From the NCBI GenBank assembly GCA_902521485.1, contig CABYRQ010000007.1, forward strand, positions 1 to 53,568: 53,568 nucleotides of DNA, given 5' to 3'. The translations under genes and the position numbers were made by a program. Below the pieces are notes generated by a model. It was given only the letters and a program-made list of their open reading frames with translations, did not search any database and was not told where the DNA came from. Shown piece after piece: positions 9,906 to 15,914 of this stretch. Origin of the DNA: an uncultured Alphaproteobacteria bacterium. Its GTDB lineage: Bacteria > Pseudomonadota > Alphaproteobacteria > HIMB59. How positions within the stretch are numbered: position 1 is the first letter of the stretch; the number at the start of each line of letters is the position of its first letter.

Positions 9906-11024
9906 TTAGTCTAAATTTTTAAAACCGTAACCTGTTTTTTTTACTCTTGTTTTAAAATAATTCTTATTAAATTTGTTAATTGTAGGTTTTGTATTTATTT
10001 GCTTGGCAATTTTAATACCAGCTTTTTTAAGAGAAGAGACTTTTGTAAAATTATTTGTGATAATATTGACTTTATTTACTTTTAATAACTTAAGTATCTT
10101 AGCGGCAATATTAAAATCTCTTTCATCATCTAAAAAACCTATGTTGTGATCAGCATCAATAGTATCCAAGCCTTTTGACTGAAGAGAATATGCCCTCATT
10201 TTATTGGCTAGTCCTATACCTCTCCCTTCTTGATCTAAATAAAGGATAATACCTCCTTTATTTTTAACCATATAGTTTAAAGAGTTATTTAATTGTTCTC
10301 CGCAATCGCATTTTCTAGAGTGAAATATATCCCCAGTAAAACAAGCTGAGTGAATTCTAAGGTTTGTTGGTTGTTTTAAATTTTTTGGTTTAATTATGAT
10401 CGCGATATGTCTTCTAGCACCAATATATGACTTAAAAATATTAAAAGTAGTAGATGCAACATTTGGTAAAGGCACATTTGCACTTGAAACTAATCTGATA
10501 CTATTAGTTATAAATTTATTCTGATTTTTTAACTCTTTATGGTTAAATCTTAATAGACCAAGTTGTAATATTAGATTATCAATATTTTTATAATATTTAG
10601 AATTAATTTTTTTAAATATAAGTGATGGTATTACCTTCGCATTTTTAGCTATATCTAAACAGACATTATGGAAGTCTTTACTTTTGATATAAGGCTCATC
10701 TTTAAATAATATTTTATTTTGATCAGATAAAGGATTAATGAATAAACTTAATAAAGATTTGTTTGATATTTTTTCATTTATTTTTAAATAAATATTTGTT
10801 GATATTTTATTTTCAAATATTGATTTTGCTTTTTGTTTTGTGATTAAAAGATATTTGTCTTTTTGTAGGTATTGATTGAATTGATTTAGAATTTTATTGT
10901 CCGAATGTTCAATATTAAAGAACATCCAATAATTTTTATTTTCTTTGATAACTATTGGTCTTCCAGTTCTAAGCTCATTAATAGCTCTATCAATAAATGT
11001 GCCAAAATTTGATTTTAAACTCAT
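9906..11024 (-). CDS. ribA: GTP cyclohydrolase II with degenerate N-terminal domain
   Basis: Opens the GTP imidazole ring with loss of formate and pyrophosphate, giving 2,5-diamino-6-ribosylamino-pyrimidinone phosphate. The C-terminal half (about 175-372) is a full RibA domain: zinc ligands Cys228, Cys239 and Cys241 (ACFTGD...RKCDCGEQL), the QEGRGIGL motif at 265-272 and Asp300/Arg302 in DERDF. The N-terminal ~170 residues sit where RibB is fused in RibBA, but the DHBP-synthase signature (DDEDRENEGD-like) is missing, so that half is probably not catalytic. It stands divergent to a RibD-type reductase with 41 bases between starts, beside pterin-type genes. The product may feed riboflavin or a separate pathway. 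Confidence 0.88.
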   Translation of the reverse strand: MSLKSNFGTFIDRAINELRTGRPIVIKENKNYWMFFNIEHSDNKILNQFNQYLQKDKYLLITKQKAKSIFENKISTNIYLKINEKISNKSLLSLFINPLSDQNKILFKDEPYIKSKDFHNVCLDIAKNAKVIPSLIFKKINSKYYKNIDNLILQLGLLRFNHKELKNQNKFITNSIRLVSSANVPLPNVASTTFNIFKSYIGARRHIAIIIKPKNLKQPTNLRIHSACFTGDIFHSRKCDCGEQLNNSLNYMVKNKGGIILYLDQEGRGIGLANKMRAYSLQSKGLDTIDADHNIGFLDDERDFNIAAKILKLLKVNKVNIITNNFTKVSSLKKAGIKIAKQINTKPTINKFNKNYFKTRVKKTGYGFKNLD

Positions 11025-11065
11025 AGACTATATATATACTCAATAGTACTTGATACAGATGAAAA

Positions 11066-11896
11066 ATGATAACAAAGCATAATATTTCTTTACTATTTGA
11101 ATTTGTAAAAAAACAAAAAAAATCAAATATCTTAAGAATTGATTTAATTAACAAATCGTTTGTACTTAGTCAACATTCTAAAACTAATCATATTTTAATT
11201 GATAAAAATGGCGTTAATTTTAATTGTAAGATTGAAAAAAAAATAAATGAAATAGCACAAATTTTATTACCAATATTGATGATAAAAAAAAAATTTTATA
11301 TCGGTCAAATTGGACAAAGCTTAGACGGTAAAATTGCACTTTTAAACGGTAATTCTCATTACATTAATGATAAAAATAGTATTTCATACCTTCATAGTCT
11401 TCGTTCAGTGTGTGATGCAGTCATAGTTGGTGTAAATACAATAAAAAAAGATAATCCCTTGCTCACTACAAGAGCAATTAAGGGCTCAAATCCTCAGAGG
11501 ATAATTATAGATCCATCTCTAAAATTAACAAATAACTATCAAATATTTAAAGATGGTTTTTCAAATATCATATTTACACACTCTAATATAAAAAAGAATT
11601 TAAATAATACACAAATTTATAAATTACCTGAAAGAAATTTCACAAATCTTATATACAAACATATAAATAATTTAGGTTTTAAGTTCGTATTAGTAGAAGG
11701 TGGTTCTAAAACTATATCTAAATTTCTTGAGAATAAATTATTAGATATTATGCAATTTATAATAGCACCTACAATTATTGGTTCTGGTATTAATTCTATA
11801 AATATAAAACCTATAACAAATTTAAAAAAAGTTATTAGAACAAAAAATAAAATTTATAAATTTGGGGATGAAATGATAGTAAGTTTAGAGTTTTAA
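11066..11896 (+). CDS. RibD C-terminal-type pyrimidine reductase
   Basis: NADPH-dependent reductase of the RibD_C/DHFR-like fold, which in riboflavin synthesis reduces the ribosyl side chain of the GTP cyclohydrolase II product. The reductase core covers about residues 77-275: GQSLDGKIA at 83-91, VIVGVNTIKKDNPLLTTR at 119-136, and the VEGG glycine-rich loop near residue 210. The N-terminal 75 residues are not a cytidine-deaminase domain (no HAE or PCxxxC motif), so this is not full RibD. Divergent from GTP cyclohydrolase II and overlapping the convergent methyltransferase by 12 bases, it looks like a dedicated member of this cluster. Confidence 0.85.
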   Translation: MITKHNISLLFEFVKKQKKSNILRIDLINKSFVLSQHSKTNHILIDKNGVNFNCKIEKKINEIAQILLPILMIKKKFYIGQIGQSLDGKIALLNGNSHYINDKNSISYLHSLRSVCDAVIVGVNTIKKDNPLLTTRAIKGSNPQRIIIDPSLKLTNNYQIFKDGFSNIIFTHSNIKKNLNNTQIYKLPERNFTNLIYKHINNLGFKFVLVEGGSKTISKFLENKLLDIMQFIIAPTIIGSGINSINIKPITNLKKVIRTKNKIYKFGDEMIVSLEF

Positions 11897-12673
11897 AGCT
11901 AAAAAATCTTTATTTCTTAAAAATAATTTTGATTTATTTTTTTTAATATTCTCCCTTCTAAAATCTAGCCATCTATCTAATGATATCTTATTTTTTTCAA
12001 GTATATTTTCACAAAAATCTAAAAACATATTTTGAAATTTTTTATTCTTTGATACATCCCAACTCGAGTCAAAAACAAATGTTTTGTGTGACTTAGTAAA
12101 CATTTTATTAATTATTTGACTACAGTTTTTACCAACTGCTTTTTGCCCAATACCTTTATCTGACTCCTGATCTTTATTAAATAAACTTAAAACGTATTGG
12201 TCATTTTTATGTTTTGGGAAAAATTTAAAAAATCCATCATAATTAATTGAAAAATATATAACTTTTGTATTTAGATTTTGTTTTTTAAATTCTAAATACC
12301 AATTTTTTGGCATTATATCTAAATACGCAGATCCTGTAATAATATCGTATTTTTTGAATTCAAAATTTTTAATATTCTTGATTAAATCAAATTTTTTATA
12401 ATTTATATTTATAATTTTATTCTTATTATTTGTTATTTTCTTAAATTCTTTAATTGACTCAAATGATATGTCTATCATATCCCATGATTGCCTTTTTTTA
12501 AGTTTAGGGTACATATATCTATAGTTGGAACCTGTTCCACAACCTAAATCAGCGATAGACAATATTTCGTAGTCTTGAAAATATTTATTTATTTTTTCTA
12601 TAATTTTTCTATTTCTTGAAACTTTATCAATTTTCTCTCGAAGAAATAGCCAATCATTATTAAATTTATGCAT
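11885..12673 (-). CDS. Class I SAM-dependent methyltransferase
   Basis: A 262 aa cytoplasmic methyltransferase. The SAM-binding motif I is ADLGCGTGSN (41-50), followed by an acidic strand end (WDMIDI) that would hold the ribose hydroxyls. The N-terminal WLFLREKID...RNRK block resembles a WLxLREPxD segment I associate with uncharacterised alphaproteobacterial methyltransferases from similar gene neighbourhoods. It overlaps the glycosyltransferase gene by eight bases and the convergent reductase by 12. The acceptor is unknown; context suggests a pterin- or pyrimidine-derived small molecule. Confidence 0.82.
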   Translation of the reverse strand: MHKFNNDWLFLREKIDKVSRNRKIIEKINKYFQDYEILSIADLGCGTGSNYRYMYPKLKKRQSWDMIDISFESIKEFKKITNNKNKIININYKKFDLIKNIKNFEFKKYDIITGSAYLDIMPKNWYLEFKKQNLNTKVIYFSINYDGFFKFFPKHKNDQYVLSLFNKDQESDKGIGQKAVGKNCSQIINKMFTKSHKTFVFDSSWDVSKNKKFQNMFLDFCENILEKNKISLDRWLDFRRENIKKNKSKLFLRNKDFLALKL

Positions 12674-13709
12674 TTTTTATTATCTTGATAAAAAGATCCC
12701 CAGATTGTGTTGGTGTTAAAAATTTTCTCTTATTTTGTGATAATTTTTTTGATAAATCTGAATTATATGCATTTTTAGTAATTAATTTTGATAAACTTTT
12801 TTCTTTGAAATTATTTAAGTAGATTATTCCATCCTTTTTTAGAGTACTCATAATTGTTTTAGTTTTATATGTAATAATCATTTTTTTGAGTTGTAGGGCA
12901 TTAGCAAGTGACATACCAAAACCTTCATATTTACTTACTGAGACATAGAAGTCACACTTAGAATATAGTTTTGATAATAAATTAGTCGATACATTACTAT
13001 GAAACTTAACTTTTTTACTTAATCTATAATCACTTATAATTTTTAGTAATCTATTATAGTACTTACTCTCTCTAGTTATATCTCCTACAATATTTAATTT
13101 TATTTTATCCATGTATCTTAATTCGTTTAACAGATAATGATAATTTTTTCTCTCAATAATACTTCCTACAGATAGTAAATTTATATTTTTATCCCTTTTA
13201 TATTTATATTTTCTTAATTTTTCTATTCCAGGTTCTACAACTTGAATTTTATACTTATTAATTTTAAATTTTTCAAAAATAAGTTGTTTTGTGTCATTTG
13301 AAGTGACAATTATTTTTTTCGTTTTCTTATATAATTTTTTAGCGTTCTTAAGAAAAAATTGACTTTGATTGCCATTAAATTCTAGATAAAGAGGGTGGTG
13401 TATAAGAGCTATTACTACAAATCTATCTAAACAGTTTATTATACTATCAATACACTCAAAAACTAACCCATCAATAATTAGTACTGCATTATCAGGTAAT
13501 TTTTCTAAAGTTTTTTTTAGATTTTTTAAGTCATTTTCTTTAGGAAAGGGAAAGCTGTCAGCTAGTTTGATAGCATTTAAATTAAATTTAATTTTTTTTG
13601 CTCTTCTTAATATATTCTTTTCATAAATGTAACCGCCTGTTTTGGTATTAATATCACCTGGATAAATAAAATAATAAGATTTATTGTGTATTACTGATCT
13701 CTTGTTCAT
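12666..13709 (-). CDS. Glycosyltransferase family 4 (GT-B fold)
   Basis: A 347 aa retaining glycosyltransferase of the GT4/group-1 type. The N-terminal Rossmann half begins YYFIYPGDINTKTGG, where the Thr-Gly-Gly loop fits the donor/acceptor cleft. The C-terminal half contains the glycosyltransferase hallmark SKYEGFGMSLANAL with the expected E-x7-E-like region. No membrane span is seen. It starts inside the end of the PTPS-like gene (29-base overlap) and overlaps the methyltransferase by eight bases, so it is translationally coupled. No other sugar-polymer genes are nearby, which favours glycosylation of a small molecule over a polysaccharide role. Confidence 0.85.
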   Translation of the reverse strand: MNKRSVIHNKSYYFIYPGDINTKTGGYIYEKNILRRAKKIKFNLNAIKLADSFPFPKENDLKNLKKTLEKLPDNAVLIIDGLVFECIDSIINCLDRFVVIALIHHPLYLEFNGNQSQFFLKNAKKLYKKTKKIIVTSNDTKQLIFEKFKINKYKIQVVEPGIEKLRKYKYKRDKNINLLSVGSIIERKNYHYLLNELRYMDKIKLNIVGDITRESKYYNRLLKIISDYRLSKKVKFHSNVSTNLLSKLYSKCDFYVSVSKYEGFGMSLANALQLKKMIITYKTKTIMSTLKKDGIIYLNNFKEKSLSKLITKNAYNSDLSKKLSQNKRKFLTPTQSGDLFIKIIKNA

Positions 13710-14088
13710 AAGAAGCCCAAGCTACATTTGACTCAGTTAAAATAATTTTAATTTTATGCAACTTGTTAAAATCTTCTATGTAATCTTTTTGTAATTTAGT
13801 GCATATTCTATCAAAAATATCTTTTGCAAGAAATTCCGTAGAGGTAATTATATTTTTAAATTCTTCAACTTCGTCTAAATTTTTATAACTATAAAATTTT
13901 AATACGTCAGAGAGAATTTCTGTTACAACCCCGAGATCCATAATAATGTTATATTTGTTAATCTCTTTTGCATAAAACTCAGCATCAACTATGTAGGTCG
14001 CTCCATGCATATTCTGTGCTGGTCCAAAAACCTCACCCGGGAGAGAATGTGCAATTAAAATATTATTTCGAACAGTAATTGAATACAT
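13681..14088 (-). CDS. 6-pyruvoyl-tetrahydropterin synthase / QueD-family homologue with altered active site
   Basis: A 135 aa T-fold protein of the PTPS/QueD family, recognisable by its length, the early His14, the HGATY block (normally HGHxY) at 28-32, STEFLAKDIF (normally PTxEN) at 83-92 and the C-terminal TESNVAWASYE with Glu119. Several expected catalytic residues are missing. The third zinc His of HGH is Ala30, no Cys stands between His14 and His28, and the Asp-His pair appears as Asp72-Glu73. It may therefore catalyse another reaction or only bind a pterin. It ends 29 bases inside the glycosyltransferase gene and starts one base after the MDR gene. Confidence 0.82.
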   Translation of the reverse strand: MYSITVRNNILIAHSLPGEVFGPAQNMHGATYIVDAEFYAKEINKYNIIMDLGVVTEILSDVLKFYSYKNLDEVEEFKNIITSTEFLAKDIFDRICTKLQKDYIEDFNKLHKIKIILTESNVAWASYEQEISNTQ

Positions 14089-14089
14089 T

Positions 14090-15052
14090 TTAATACTTTA
14101 TAGCATGCATTATGCTTTCTGGATTATTTAATATTGAAATATAATCTTTCTCTAGATCCTTAAAGTCACTTTCAGTGTTTATTAATTTAAGAAGTTGGTT
14201 ATTAGATAAAGCATTAATTGCTAAATTCAATCTCTTTTTATAATCATATTTTTTAGATAAATACTTTGGAATATTTGAAACTTGAGAACCAATAATTTTT
14301 AATCTCTTTGAGTGAAAATTACCTCCTAAATTTATATGACCTTTTCTATTTCCATACCAACTAGCCTCAATAAATTTTCCCTCTAAATTTAATTTTTTTA
14401 GTGATAGGTTTAGTACATCGTAATTAGAAGTTGTATTAATTATAACATCTAAGTCTTTAATTTTTTTAAAATTAATAAATTTTAGTCCTAAAATATTAGC
14501 AAATTTCTTCTTTTTAATATTTATGTCAGTAATAAAGACATTTTTAAATTTTAGTAATTTATAATAGTAGGCAGTTAAAATACCAACAGAGCCCATCCCT
14601 ACTATCAATATTTTGTTATTTAATTTTGCTTGAGTATCCCAAAAGATATTAATAGCTGTTTCCATATTTGCTGTTAGTAAATATTTTCGAATATCACCAT
14701 TACCTTTCAAAATATTCACATTATTTATATTAATCTTAAATAGTGACTGATGAGGGTAAAGGCAGAATGTATTTTTATTTAAATATTTTTTTGGTCCTTC
14801 AACTATTTTACCAACATTAATGTAACCGTACTTAATTGGAAAAGAAAAAGATCCCTCTTGAAAAGGAGATTTCATTATATCGAATTGATCTTTGCTAATA
14901 TTACCAGATGCTACTAATCTCTCAGTACCTTTACTAATTCCTGAATAAAGAGTTTTTACAAGAACAGTTTTAGAATTTTTTTTATAGCTTAGTATTTTTT
15001 TCTTAATAATTGCTTTATTTTCACTCTTAAGCCATAGAGAATAAGTTTCCAT
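14090..15052 (-). CDS. MDR-superfamily dehydrogenase lacking the catalytic zinc Cys
   Basis: A 320 aa medium-chain dehydrogenase/reductase with an NAD(P)-binding GMGSVG loop at 152-157 and a Rossmann half after it. Where zinc alcohol dehydrogenases have GxCxxD/H, this protein has SGISKGTE at 37-44, as in BchC-like members, so a catalytic zinc is unlikely. NMETAINIFWDT (129-140) is also typical of that branch. I chose the ATG at 15050-15052 (METYSLWL) over an in-frame GTG at 15079, which would leave two bases to the divergent creatininase gene. It leads the PTPS-glycosyltransferase-methyltransferase operon. Confidence 0.82.
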   Translation of the reverse strand: METYSLWLKSENKAIIKKKILSYKKNSKTVLVKTLYSGISKGTERLVASGNISKDQFDIMKSPFQEGSFSFPIKYGYINVGKIVEGPKKYLNKNTFCLYPHQSLFKININNVNILKGNGDIRKYLLTANMETAINIFWDTQAKLNNKILIVGMGSVGILTAYYYKLLKFKNVFITDINIKKKKFANILGLKFINFKKIKDLDVIINTTSNYDVLNLSLKKLNLEGKFIEASWYGNRKGHINLGGNFHSKRLKIIGSQVSNIPKYLSKKYDYKKRLNLAINALSNNQLLKLINTESDFKDLEKDYISILNNPESIMHAIKY

Positions 15053-15081
15053 AATAATTATATAAATGTTAAATATCACTT

Positions 15082-15840
15082 ATGCTATCAAAGTTTTGGT
15101 CAGATTTAACATCAGCAGATATTAGTAAATTAGGTAAAAATAAAATACTTATTCTCCCATTTTCATCTGTAGAACAACATGGAGAACACCTTCCATCAGG
15201 TACTGATAAATTTATATTAGATGGAATTTTAAATAATTTTGTTAAGAAATATCCCAAAATTAATAAATATTTAATTCTACCAAATATCTCTATAGGTTCA
15301 GCAAGTGAGCATAATAGCTTTGAGGGCACTCTATCTTCGAACTCTACAAATTATATTGATTATATTATCAGCATAGTTGGTGAGTTATGTATTCGTAGAT
15401 ATAAAAAATTTATCTTTTTAAATAGTCATGGCGGACAAATTAGTCACTTAGATATAGCTGCTAAAGAAATTAAAAGTAGATATAAAGCTGTCGATATTGT
15501 TAAGGCACATTATTTTTTATTTAAAGGTTTTGAAAAAATTATTCCAAAAAAGGAATTACTTTATGGATATCATGGAGGTGAATTTGAAACATCAATAATG
15601 CTCCACCTTTATCCAGAATTGATAAAATTAAATAAAATTAAAAGAAGCAAACTCTCATCTGACTTTGAATCTAAAAAAATAATTTCTTATGAAAGAACAA
15701 TTAAAAGAGCTTGGAATACAAAAGATTTGTCCAAGACAGGTATAATTGGCAATCCTACAAAATCCTCTGCAGATAAAGGAAAAAGAATTCTAGATCTTAC
15801 ATCAAGAACCTTAAAAAAAATAATTGATGAAATGAAGTAG
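15082..15840 (+). CDS. Creatininase-family metal amidohydrolase (MftE/ArfB-like)
   Basis: A 252 aa creatininase-fold hydrolase with the complete metal site: Glu31 and His33 (VEQHGEHLP), Asp42 (GTDKF), His116 (NSHGG) and Glu167 (GYHGGEFETS). Family members include creatininase, archaeal ArfB, which deformylates a GTP-derived formylamino-pyrimidine, and the mycofactocin peptidase MftE. Beside GTP cyclohydrolase II and pterin-type genes, an amide or formamide of a pyrimidine is the most attractive substrate, but this is inferred. Its start is 29 bases from the divergent MDR gene, and its stop directly abuts the 3' end of the opposite-strand tRNA-Cys. Confidence 0.85.
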   Translation: MLSKFWSDLTSADISKLGKNKILILPFSSVEQHGEHLPSGTDKFILDGILNNFVKKYPKINKYLILPNISIGSASEHNSFEGTLSSNSTNYIDYIISIVGELCIRRYKKFIFLNSHGGQISHLDIAAKEIKSRYKAVDIVKAHYFLFKGFEKIIPKKELLYGYHGGEFETSIMLHLYPELIKLNKIKRSKLSSDFESKKIISYERTIKRAWNTKDLSKTGIIGNPTKSSADKGKRILDLTSRTLKKIIDEMK

Positions 15841-15914
15841 TGGAGGCCCACCCCGGAATCGAACCGAGCTACAAGGATTTGCAGTCCTCTGCATAACCAA
15901 TCTGCCAGCGGGCC
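15841..15914 (-). tRNA. tRNA-Cys (GCA)
   Basis: Minus-strand cloverleaf: acceptor GGCCCGC/GTGGGCC (one G-T pair), discriminator T and encoded CCA, anticodon loop CTGCAAA with GCA, T arm CTCGG-TTCGATT-CCGGG. The CCA end begins on the base after the creatininase stop codon, so the two convergent genes leave no intergenic base. Confidence 0.96.

Follow-up and report, generated by a model that had tools for sequence, protein, structure and literature searches.

We analysed a seven-gene cluster on a 53,568-nucleotide stretch of DNA from an uncultured Alphaproteobacteria bacterium (HIMB59; assembly GCA_902521485.1, contig CABYRQ010000007.1, forward strand), referred to below as the window. A preliminary description of this DNA had proposed that the seven genes together make a methylated, glycosylated compound derived from GTP. 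Using a list of open reading frames (ORFs) together with Pfam and NCBIfam profile scans, we find all seven genes at the positions first given for them; Pfam names six, and the dehydrogenase was recognized by structural modelling and Foldseek. The genes and the feature that follows them are:

9906-11024, minus strand: RibA-type GTP cyclohydrolase II, 372 amino acids (PF00925, 162 bits)
11066-11896, plus strand: RibD-C-type pyrimidine reductase without a deaminase domain (PF01872, 100 bits)
11885-12673, minus strand: class-I S-adenosylmethionine-dependent methyltransferase (PF13649, weak, 29 bits)
12666-13709, minus strand: GT4-family glycosyltransferase (PF00534, 81 bits)
13681-14088, minus strand: PTPS-IV protein, a member of the 6-pyruvoyltetrahydropterin synthase (PTPS) family with the motif FGPAQxxHGAT (PF01242, 74 bits)
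14090-15079, minus strand: dehydrogenase of the medium-chain dehydrogenase/reductase (MDR) superfamily, distantly BchC-like (TIGR01202, 51 bits; model and Foldseek)
15082-15840, plus strand: creatininase-family amidohydrolase, candidate formylaminopyrimidine deformylase (PF02633, 180 bits)
15841-15914, directly after the creatininase gene: tRNA-Cys

Five of the genes (RibA, methyltransferase, GT4, PTPS and MDR) thus lie on the minus strand and two (reductase and creatininase) on the plus strand. MDR, PTPS, GT4 and methyltransferase form a single minus-strand run in which the genes abut or overlap; the creatininase ORF, which is read the other way, opens 2 bases from the MDR ORF, and a 41-base gap separates the divergently oriented reductase and RibA genes. 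The MDR ORF opens with GTG, an ATG 27 bases inward being the likelier start. The tRNA-Cys gene also adjoins the cluster in two same-genus loci (L213 and L215) and lies about 1 kb off in a third (L214).

Comparison with other genomes indicates that the seven genes are almost certainly a conserved unit, one lineage's version of a widespread cluster. A search seeded with the MDR protein found relatives in 30 of 240 genomes of the class, the window's own included, and in 28 of these 30 a PTPS-like gene lies inside the same 3-4 kb locus. Among close relatives the PTPS gene is present in 38 of 60 genomes (10 of the 17 better ones). When the phylum was sampled evenly (398 genomes), 27 genomes carried a PTPS-IV gene (four of the 27 were already in the first sample), and within about 1.5 kb of it there is an MDR gene in every case (27/27) and a GT4 gene in 25. 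We rejected chance adjacency on this recurrence. In two actinobacterial orders, picked because carriers were known there, the gene set occurs in 94 and 76 genomes, respectively, of the 249 sampled from each.

For finer comparison we assembled 175 loci: 28 from genomes of the class, the window, six from plasmid records, 80 from named genomes and 60 chosen by hand. The class part derives from 29 MDR-seeded genomes, of which 28 have PTPS-IV and one (L055) lacks it and was excluded; the plasmid part counts six of 20 matching records, two further records having been looked at and left uncounted. The 80 are the best of at least 590 loci confirmed in a PTPS alignment scan, and among these best 80 the cluster's hosts are Alpha-, Beta- and Gammaproteobacteria, Actinomycetota and Acidobacteria. 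The 60 came from three further scans (3, 37 and 20 loci) with long contigs preferred; in the scan that gave three, only 10 of 52 matches exceeded 100 bits, and the remainder were taken as QueD-like and left unused. The total is one of loci and not of events: some are nearly duplicates of each other (L052 and L094 have like scores), and many come from a shared genus. The group labels are our own assignment, based on record titles and on the search that supplied each locus; the class and phylum of the sampled genomes are deduced from the class-level genome G028, whose scores equal those of L094, a Rhodospirillaceae genome.

Near PTPS-IV in these 175 loci stand MDR (174), GT4 (171), methyltransferase (163), RibA (104), reductase (101) and creatininase (77). 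At least one of RibA, reductase and creatininase is present in 150 loci, and all seven genes in 28; in 15 ORFs from the first 116 loci, GT4 and methyltransferase are fused into one protein. The conservation in other alphaproteobacteria that the preliminary description expected is therefore borne out by this gene-neighbourhood search and reaches far beyond them, to three proteobacterial classes, Actinomycetota and Acidobacteria. The cluster or its core is also found on plasmid records from Palleronia, Thiodictyon, Microbacterium, Agrobacterium, Methylosinus and Neorhizobium. On a plasmid of Streptomyces anthocyanicus (L064) the PTPS-IV gene stands alone, the other six being unmatched within 20 kb. 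Four actinobacterial loci (L119, L120, L132 and L142) have the MDR-PTPS-GT4 core and no match to RibA, reductase or creatininase within the locus; in L132, GT4 overlaps the methyltransferase gene. Where a locus has no such match, the entry genes may lie elsewhere in the genome.

The PTPS-like protein has lost the residues that define its better-known relatives. Across 29 class-level sequences the QueD motif CxxxHGH reads AxxxHGA in every one, within FGPA[Q]xxHGAT: F21, G22, P23 and A24 are invariant, Q25 is present in 27, and the window has FGPAQ. This change removes the catalytic Cys and, with Ala in its place in 29/29, the second histidine of HGH, a zinc His; for the same reason, the CxxxxxHGH or ExxHGH motifs of PTPS-II (biopterin) and PTPS-III (folate) are not found. 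Glu119, presumably the anchor of the base in this T-fold, is kept in all 29. The best solved relative is SCO6650 of Streptomyces coelicolor (PDB 3d7j, E 5.9e-34), whose structure authors reportedly found neither zinc nor PTPS activity.

A queuosine, tetrahydropterin or deazapurine pathway built on a usual QueD or PTPS enzyme, which the PF01242 match and the automatic label 6-carboxytetrahydropterin synthase would favour, is very improbable on this evidence. Besides the altered motif, the QueD model TIGR03367 gives the window protein 41 bits against a cut-off of 89, and no GTP cyclohydrolase I, QueC, QueE or sepiapterin-reductase-like protein occurs among the scanned neighbours. We rejected QueD or biopterin chemistry because the motif is lost, and with the catalytic residues gone the usual pterin side-chain chemistry is not to be assumed. 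The earlier label "PTPS/QueD homologue" was right as to family (PF01242) and needs qualifying: the protein belongs to the named PTPS-IV subgroup, and its residue pattern suggests that it probably binds a pterin- or pyrimidine-like base without QueD chemistry.

FGPAQ is the published signature of the PTPS-IV subgroup of COG0720 (PMC5445326). The section of that paper on the AGeNNT analysis counts 561 FGPAQ sequences and names PF00925 and PF01872 as neighbouring families; unlike the present comparison, that section has no mention of MDR, GT4, methyltransferase, creatininase, CDP-alcohol or flippase-like partners, and it proposes no pathway. It labels PF00925 "GTP cyclohydrolase I / FolE2", the Pfam name being GTP cyclohydrolase II. 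A passage in another article assigns PTPS-IV to archaeal F420 as unpublished work (PMC5041015); no F420 gene (Fo synthase, Cof) is present among the Pfam-scanned neighbours, a statement that concerns these neighbours, the genome itself not having been searched for such genes.

The other three conserved families point to an entry from GTP. Window RibA has the three zinc cysteines and the catalytic Tyr (E. coli positions 54, 65, 67 and 105), with HSxCxTGD...CDCG and RAY aligned to 2bz0. Its N-terminal half is a degenerate form of 3,4-dihydroxy-2-butanone 4-phosphate (DHBP) synthase: in profile comparison, this half of the cluster RibA proteins matches DHBP synthase (hhalign probability 96%) but lacks the DxExREN loop. 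Among solved structures, the reductase is closest to the reductase parts of bifunctional RibD (2hxv, 9no2); next come free-standing 2,5-diamino-6-ribosylaminopyrimidinone 5'-phosphate reductases, 6p8c for example. In the creatininase-family protein E31, H33, D42, H116 and E169, which we take to be metal ligands, are invariant in six of six sequences.

Wherever a proteobacterial or acidobacterial locus has a cluster RibA (35 loci), the enzyme carries Tyr at E. coli position 105. In Actinomycetota, RibA is of two kinds: the 19 loci with a Tyr-type enzyme have the reductase and in no case a creatininase gene, and of the 49 loci in which Tyr is replaced by His, Met, Leu, Gln or Asn, 46 have creatininase (Fisher P 4.6e-14, uncorrected for descent). 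The three exceptions are of the Leu type (L332, L335 and L336), and one of them, L336, has a weak creatininase match of 58 bits. Among the 60 hand-picked loci creatininase occurs in none of the 12 that have no RibA nearby. On a tree of RibA the Tyr changes once and the presence of creatininase five times. The GTP cyclohydrolase II paralogue SCO6655 is said to have Met in place of this Tyr and to stop at the formylated pyrimidine. Met stands at the same position in the cluster RibA of three named Streptomyces loci (L131, L134 and L135), whereas window RibA keeps the Tyr.

A tree of creatininases (FastTree, midpoint root, supports not inspected) splits the cluster copies into two clades, one proteobacterial and acidobacterial and one actinobacterial, and the actinobacterial clade adjoins paralogues from the same phylum that lie outside the cluster, as would be expected if the enzyme had been recruited into the cluster twice. 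A precedent for its role is BrbF of Sinorhizobium meliloti, presented in the relevant part of PMC9478397 as a creatininase-family formamidase that, like archaeal ArfB, deformylates a GTP-derived pyrimidine. BrbF is described there as serving riboflavin, whereas the cluster enzyme sits with PTPS-IV, GT4 and methyltransferase; the two are alike in family and, as proposed for the cluster enzyme, in activity. Because creatininase goes with Tyr-less RibA, and given the BrbF precedent and the formylated end point ascribed to SCO6655, the enzyme would most likely complete the RibA reaction in Actinomycetota by deformylation. That the pathway begins with a GTP-derived pyrimidine is likely from these comparisons, and the earlier assignment of the entry enzymes to GTP and pyrimidine families gains from the matches to PF00925 and PF01872 and from the creatininase-family deformylase described in that part of PMC9478397.

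We asked how these genes relate to riboflavin synthesis. On another contig, the window's own genome has a run that reads nrdR-ribD-ribE-ribBX-ribH-nusB, with a full-length RibD. Its RibBX (genome G000, contig C2, locus L063, 7567-8640) has a DHBP synthase half with the active-site loop and a cyclohydrolase half without zinc cysteines. In nine of ten cluster-bearing genomes of the genus (86-94% complete), cluster RibA is the sole strong GTP cyclohydrolase II match, G263 having a second; it is likewise the sole strong match in the window's genome (79% complete), though incomplete genomes could hide copies. Three genomes without the PTPS gene (G030, G252 and G254) have a different, stand-alone RibA; G030 is a near-complete same-genus genome in which it lies in another setting (L211, contig of 1,410,127 bases). 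Six genomes of a sister family that have the PTPS gene (G161, G277 and G279-G282) carry a separate 198-residue GTP cyclohydrolase II in addition to cluster RibA. In G283, which gave no PTPS match, a RibA of the cluster's size lies near a contig start.

As genomes of the genus usually show no intact GTP cyclohydrolase II besides cluster RibA, this enzyme probably also feeds riboflavin there, and the simplest reading of these distributions is that, with or without creatininase, it would deliver the normal riboflavin precursor, which would be the branch point. The cluster as a whole does not look like part of the riboflavin pathway: its reductase has no deaminase, and ribD, ribE and ribH are in the separate operon on the other contig. 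The possibility raised at the outset, that the ribA- and ribD-like genes are the only copies and account for riboflavin alone, thus holds halfway, RibA being mostly the only copy and a separate ribD-ribE-ribBX-ribH operon being present; we rejected a riboflavin-only reading in view of that operon and of the sister-family genomes with both types of RibA.

Two related explanations draw on the same sole-copy pattern of cluster RibA. In the first, RibA and the reductase would raise riboflavin supply, and GT4, methyltransferase and MDR would decorate a flavin or lumazine. Against it, no RibB, RibH, RibE or flavokinase is found among 20 Pfam-scanned neighbour proteins (a set that does not take in every recurring family), the reductase lacks the deaminase required for lumazine synthesis, and the sister-family genomes hold their separate 198-residue enzyme. 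PTPS homologues, to our knowledge, have no part in flavin synthesis. We consider this explanation quite unlikely. That RibA and the reductase are housekeeping riboflavin genes that happen to sit beside an unrelated five-gene operon is scarcely credible, as both recur with PTPS-IV across phyla at the frequencies given above, the window's genome has another full-length RibD, and both RibA types coexist in the sister family.

The remaining core enzymes are placed less precisely. For MDR, Pfam gave nothing at E 0.001 and sequence comparison pointed to no solved relative, and its match to the BchC model is weak (51 bits against a cut-off of 291 in NCBIfam). An AlphaFold model of the window protein, with the first 12 residues of the GTG-initiated ORF cut off, has a mean pLDDT (AlphaFold's per-residue confidence score) of 94, and Foldseek places it in the MDR fold near polyol and sugar dehydrogenases. 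The methyltransferase model (mean pLDDT 93.9) matches methyltransferases; for both proteins the structure searches gave family-level matches only.

Outside the seven families, two lipid-type partners recur. A CDP-alcohol phosphotransferase gene is present in 138 of the 175 loci, and all 138 proteins have the motif DGxxAR(x8)GxxxDxxxD (with slight leeway in spacing and at two residues). By group it occurs in Actinomycetota (83/91), Gammaproteobacteria (26/31), Betaproteobacteria (10/12), Acidobacteria (3/3), unplaced loci (2/2) and Alphaproteobacteria (14/36), and 117 of the 138 matches lie 1-2 kb upstream, beside MDR. A flippase-like protein of the LPG_synthase_TM family is encoded in 115 loci (Actinomycetota 87, Gammaproteobacteria 24, Alphaproteobacteria 2, Betaproteobacteria 1, unplaced 1, Acidobacteria 0), with 102 of the 115 matches 2-3 kb downstream, after the methyltransferase gene. 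Representatives of these two families have no solved relative by sequence at E 0.1. The sharp position peaks, taken without a random-locus control, argue that these partners belong to the system, and this suggests a membrane-linked product in many lineages; we regard a lipid-linked product as a tentative idea. In the assembly of phosphatidylinositol mannosides, a CDP-alcohol synthase likewise works with a GT4 enzyme, PimA. Clusters with the lipid partners would resemble that route in combining a CDP-alcohol phosphotransferase and a GT4 protein in one membrane pathway, and would differ from it in that the proposed head group is GTP-derived.

Further recurring families in the 175 loci are YceI (34), weakly sulfatase-like proteins (44; one representative falls below the PF00884 cut-off, two have no match and one record is annotated so) and cytochrome b561 (9), and GT2 and FkbM proteins are also among the neighbours. 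Families of 1060 and 400 residues lie near the cluster in L069, L091, L098, L101 and L105, annotated in L069 as an RND efflux permease and adaptor. One ORF family beside MDR (96 loci) was dropped, as 94 of its ORFs lie antisense to the CDP-alcohol gene; a second (25 loci), to which no family was assigned, is antisense in only four of 25. Scanning ten more actinobacterial neighbours identified one, a methyltransferase.

The lipid-type genes, together with GT2, FkbM and sulfatase-like neighbours, would also suit a locus for an envelope glycolipid, with PTPS-IV, RibA and the reductase co-opted for other substrates and no GTP-derived chemistry taking place. This is unlikely, as RibA keeps its zinc residues and, save in one actinobacterial clade, its catalytic residues; moreover, in the genus it seems to stand in for the housekeeping enzyme, and creatininase tracks RibA type in Actinomycetota.

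We therefore favour, as the somewhat more probable account, a widespread PTPS-IV pathway leading from GTP to a methylated, glycosylated pterin-like compound that may be linked to lipid in many lineages. Its chemical steps, like the lipid link, we infer from the gene content, conservation and residue patterns found by comparison. The product of RibA acting on GTP would be either a formylaminopyrimidine or 2,5-diamino-6-ribosylamino-pyrimidinone phosphate itself, and the creatininase-family enzyme would take off the formyl group where RibA stops short. The reductase would then turn the ribosyl into a ribityl chain with the 2-amino group retained, as fits the missing deaminase and the conserved Glu119 of PTPS-IV. 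PTPS-IV and MDR may elaborate this intermediate to a pterin-like (2-amino-4-oxo) compound, to which methyltransferase and GT4, as a coupled pair, would add a methyl group and a sugar. In many lineages, the window's cluster not among them, the CDP-alcohol phosphotransferase may put the product into a phospholipid and the flippase-like protein may move it across the membrane. That the product is pterin-like is plausible, at about even chances. The central idea of the preliminary description largely stands in this form; it had listed PTPS-IV as a PTPS/QueD homologue, and it foresaw neither so close a tie to riboflavin nor the lipid-type partners.

Several observations count against this pathway. 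The literature we searched yielded no metabolite or product of the cluster. PTPS-IV, its catalytic residues gone, may do no more than bind a pterin. Of the 49 actinobacterial loci with Tyr-less RibA, 47 have no reductase in the cluster, which makes a ribityl product uncertain there (each of ten actinobacterial genomes searched has 7-28 RibD_C-family matches, in the cluster or elsewhere). As the loss of Tyr is a single event on the RibA tree, its association with creatininase does not amount to many independent tests; and 26 of the 35 proteobacterial and acidobacterial loci have creatininase alongside Tyr RibA, so that the idea of creatininase being needed only where RibA has lost Tyr fails in these groups. 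The mycofactocin MftE model gives cluster creatininases 105-147 bits, short of its cut-off of 172, and fits them better than does the ArfB model, which gives 20-38 bits in four of five other cluster copies (cut-off 180) and no match at E 0.001 for the window protein. Lastly, among the 36 alphaproteobacterial loci only 14 have the CDP-alcohol gene and two the flippase-like gene, and both are absent from the window's cluster, the rest of the genome not having been searched for unlinked copies.

The preliminary description could match the cluster to no described pathway, and the literature we searched gave no account of the whole cluster or pathway, which is apparently undescribed, the PTPS-IV subgroup itself having been named before. 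New here are the link between creatininase and RibA type in Actinomycetota, the lipid-type flanking genes and the tie of RibA to riboflavin in the genus. At its furthest, and as a speculative possibility, the cluster may define a new class of membrane lipid common to Proteobacteria, Actinomycetota and Acidobacteria, in which a methylated, glycosylated, GTP-derived pterin-like head group on a phospholipid would be flipped to the outer leaflet and serve as a membrane-bound redox or light-absorbing group. The gene set recurs in the sampled genomes, culturable genera included. If the pathway is real, a GTP-derived natural product or lipid would join the flavin, folate, biopterin, deazapurine and F420 families, and orphan proteins such as SCO6650, whose structure is already solved, would find a home. 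More generally, these data suggest that in small-genome bacteria a riboflavin enzyme may be shared with a second pathway.

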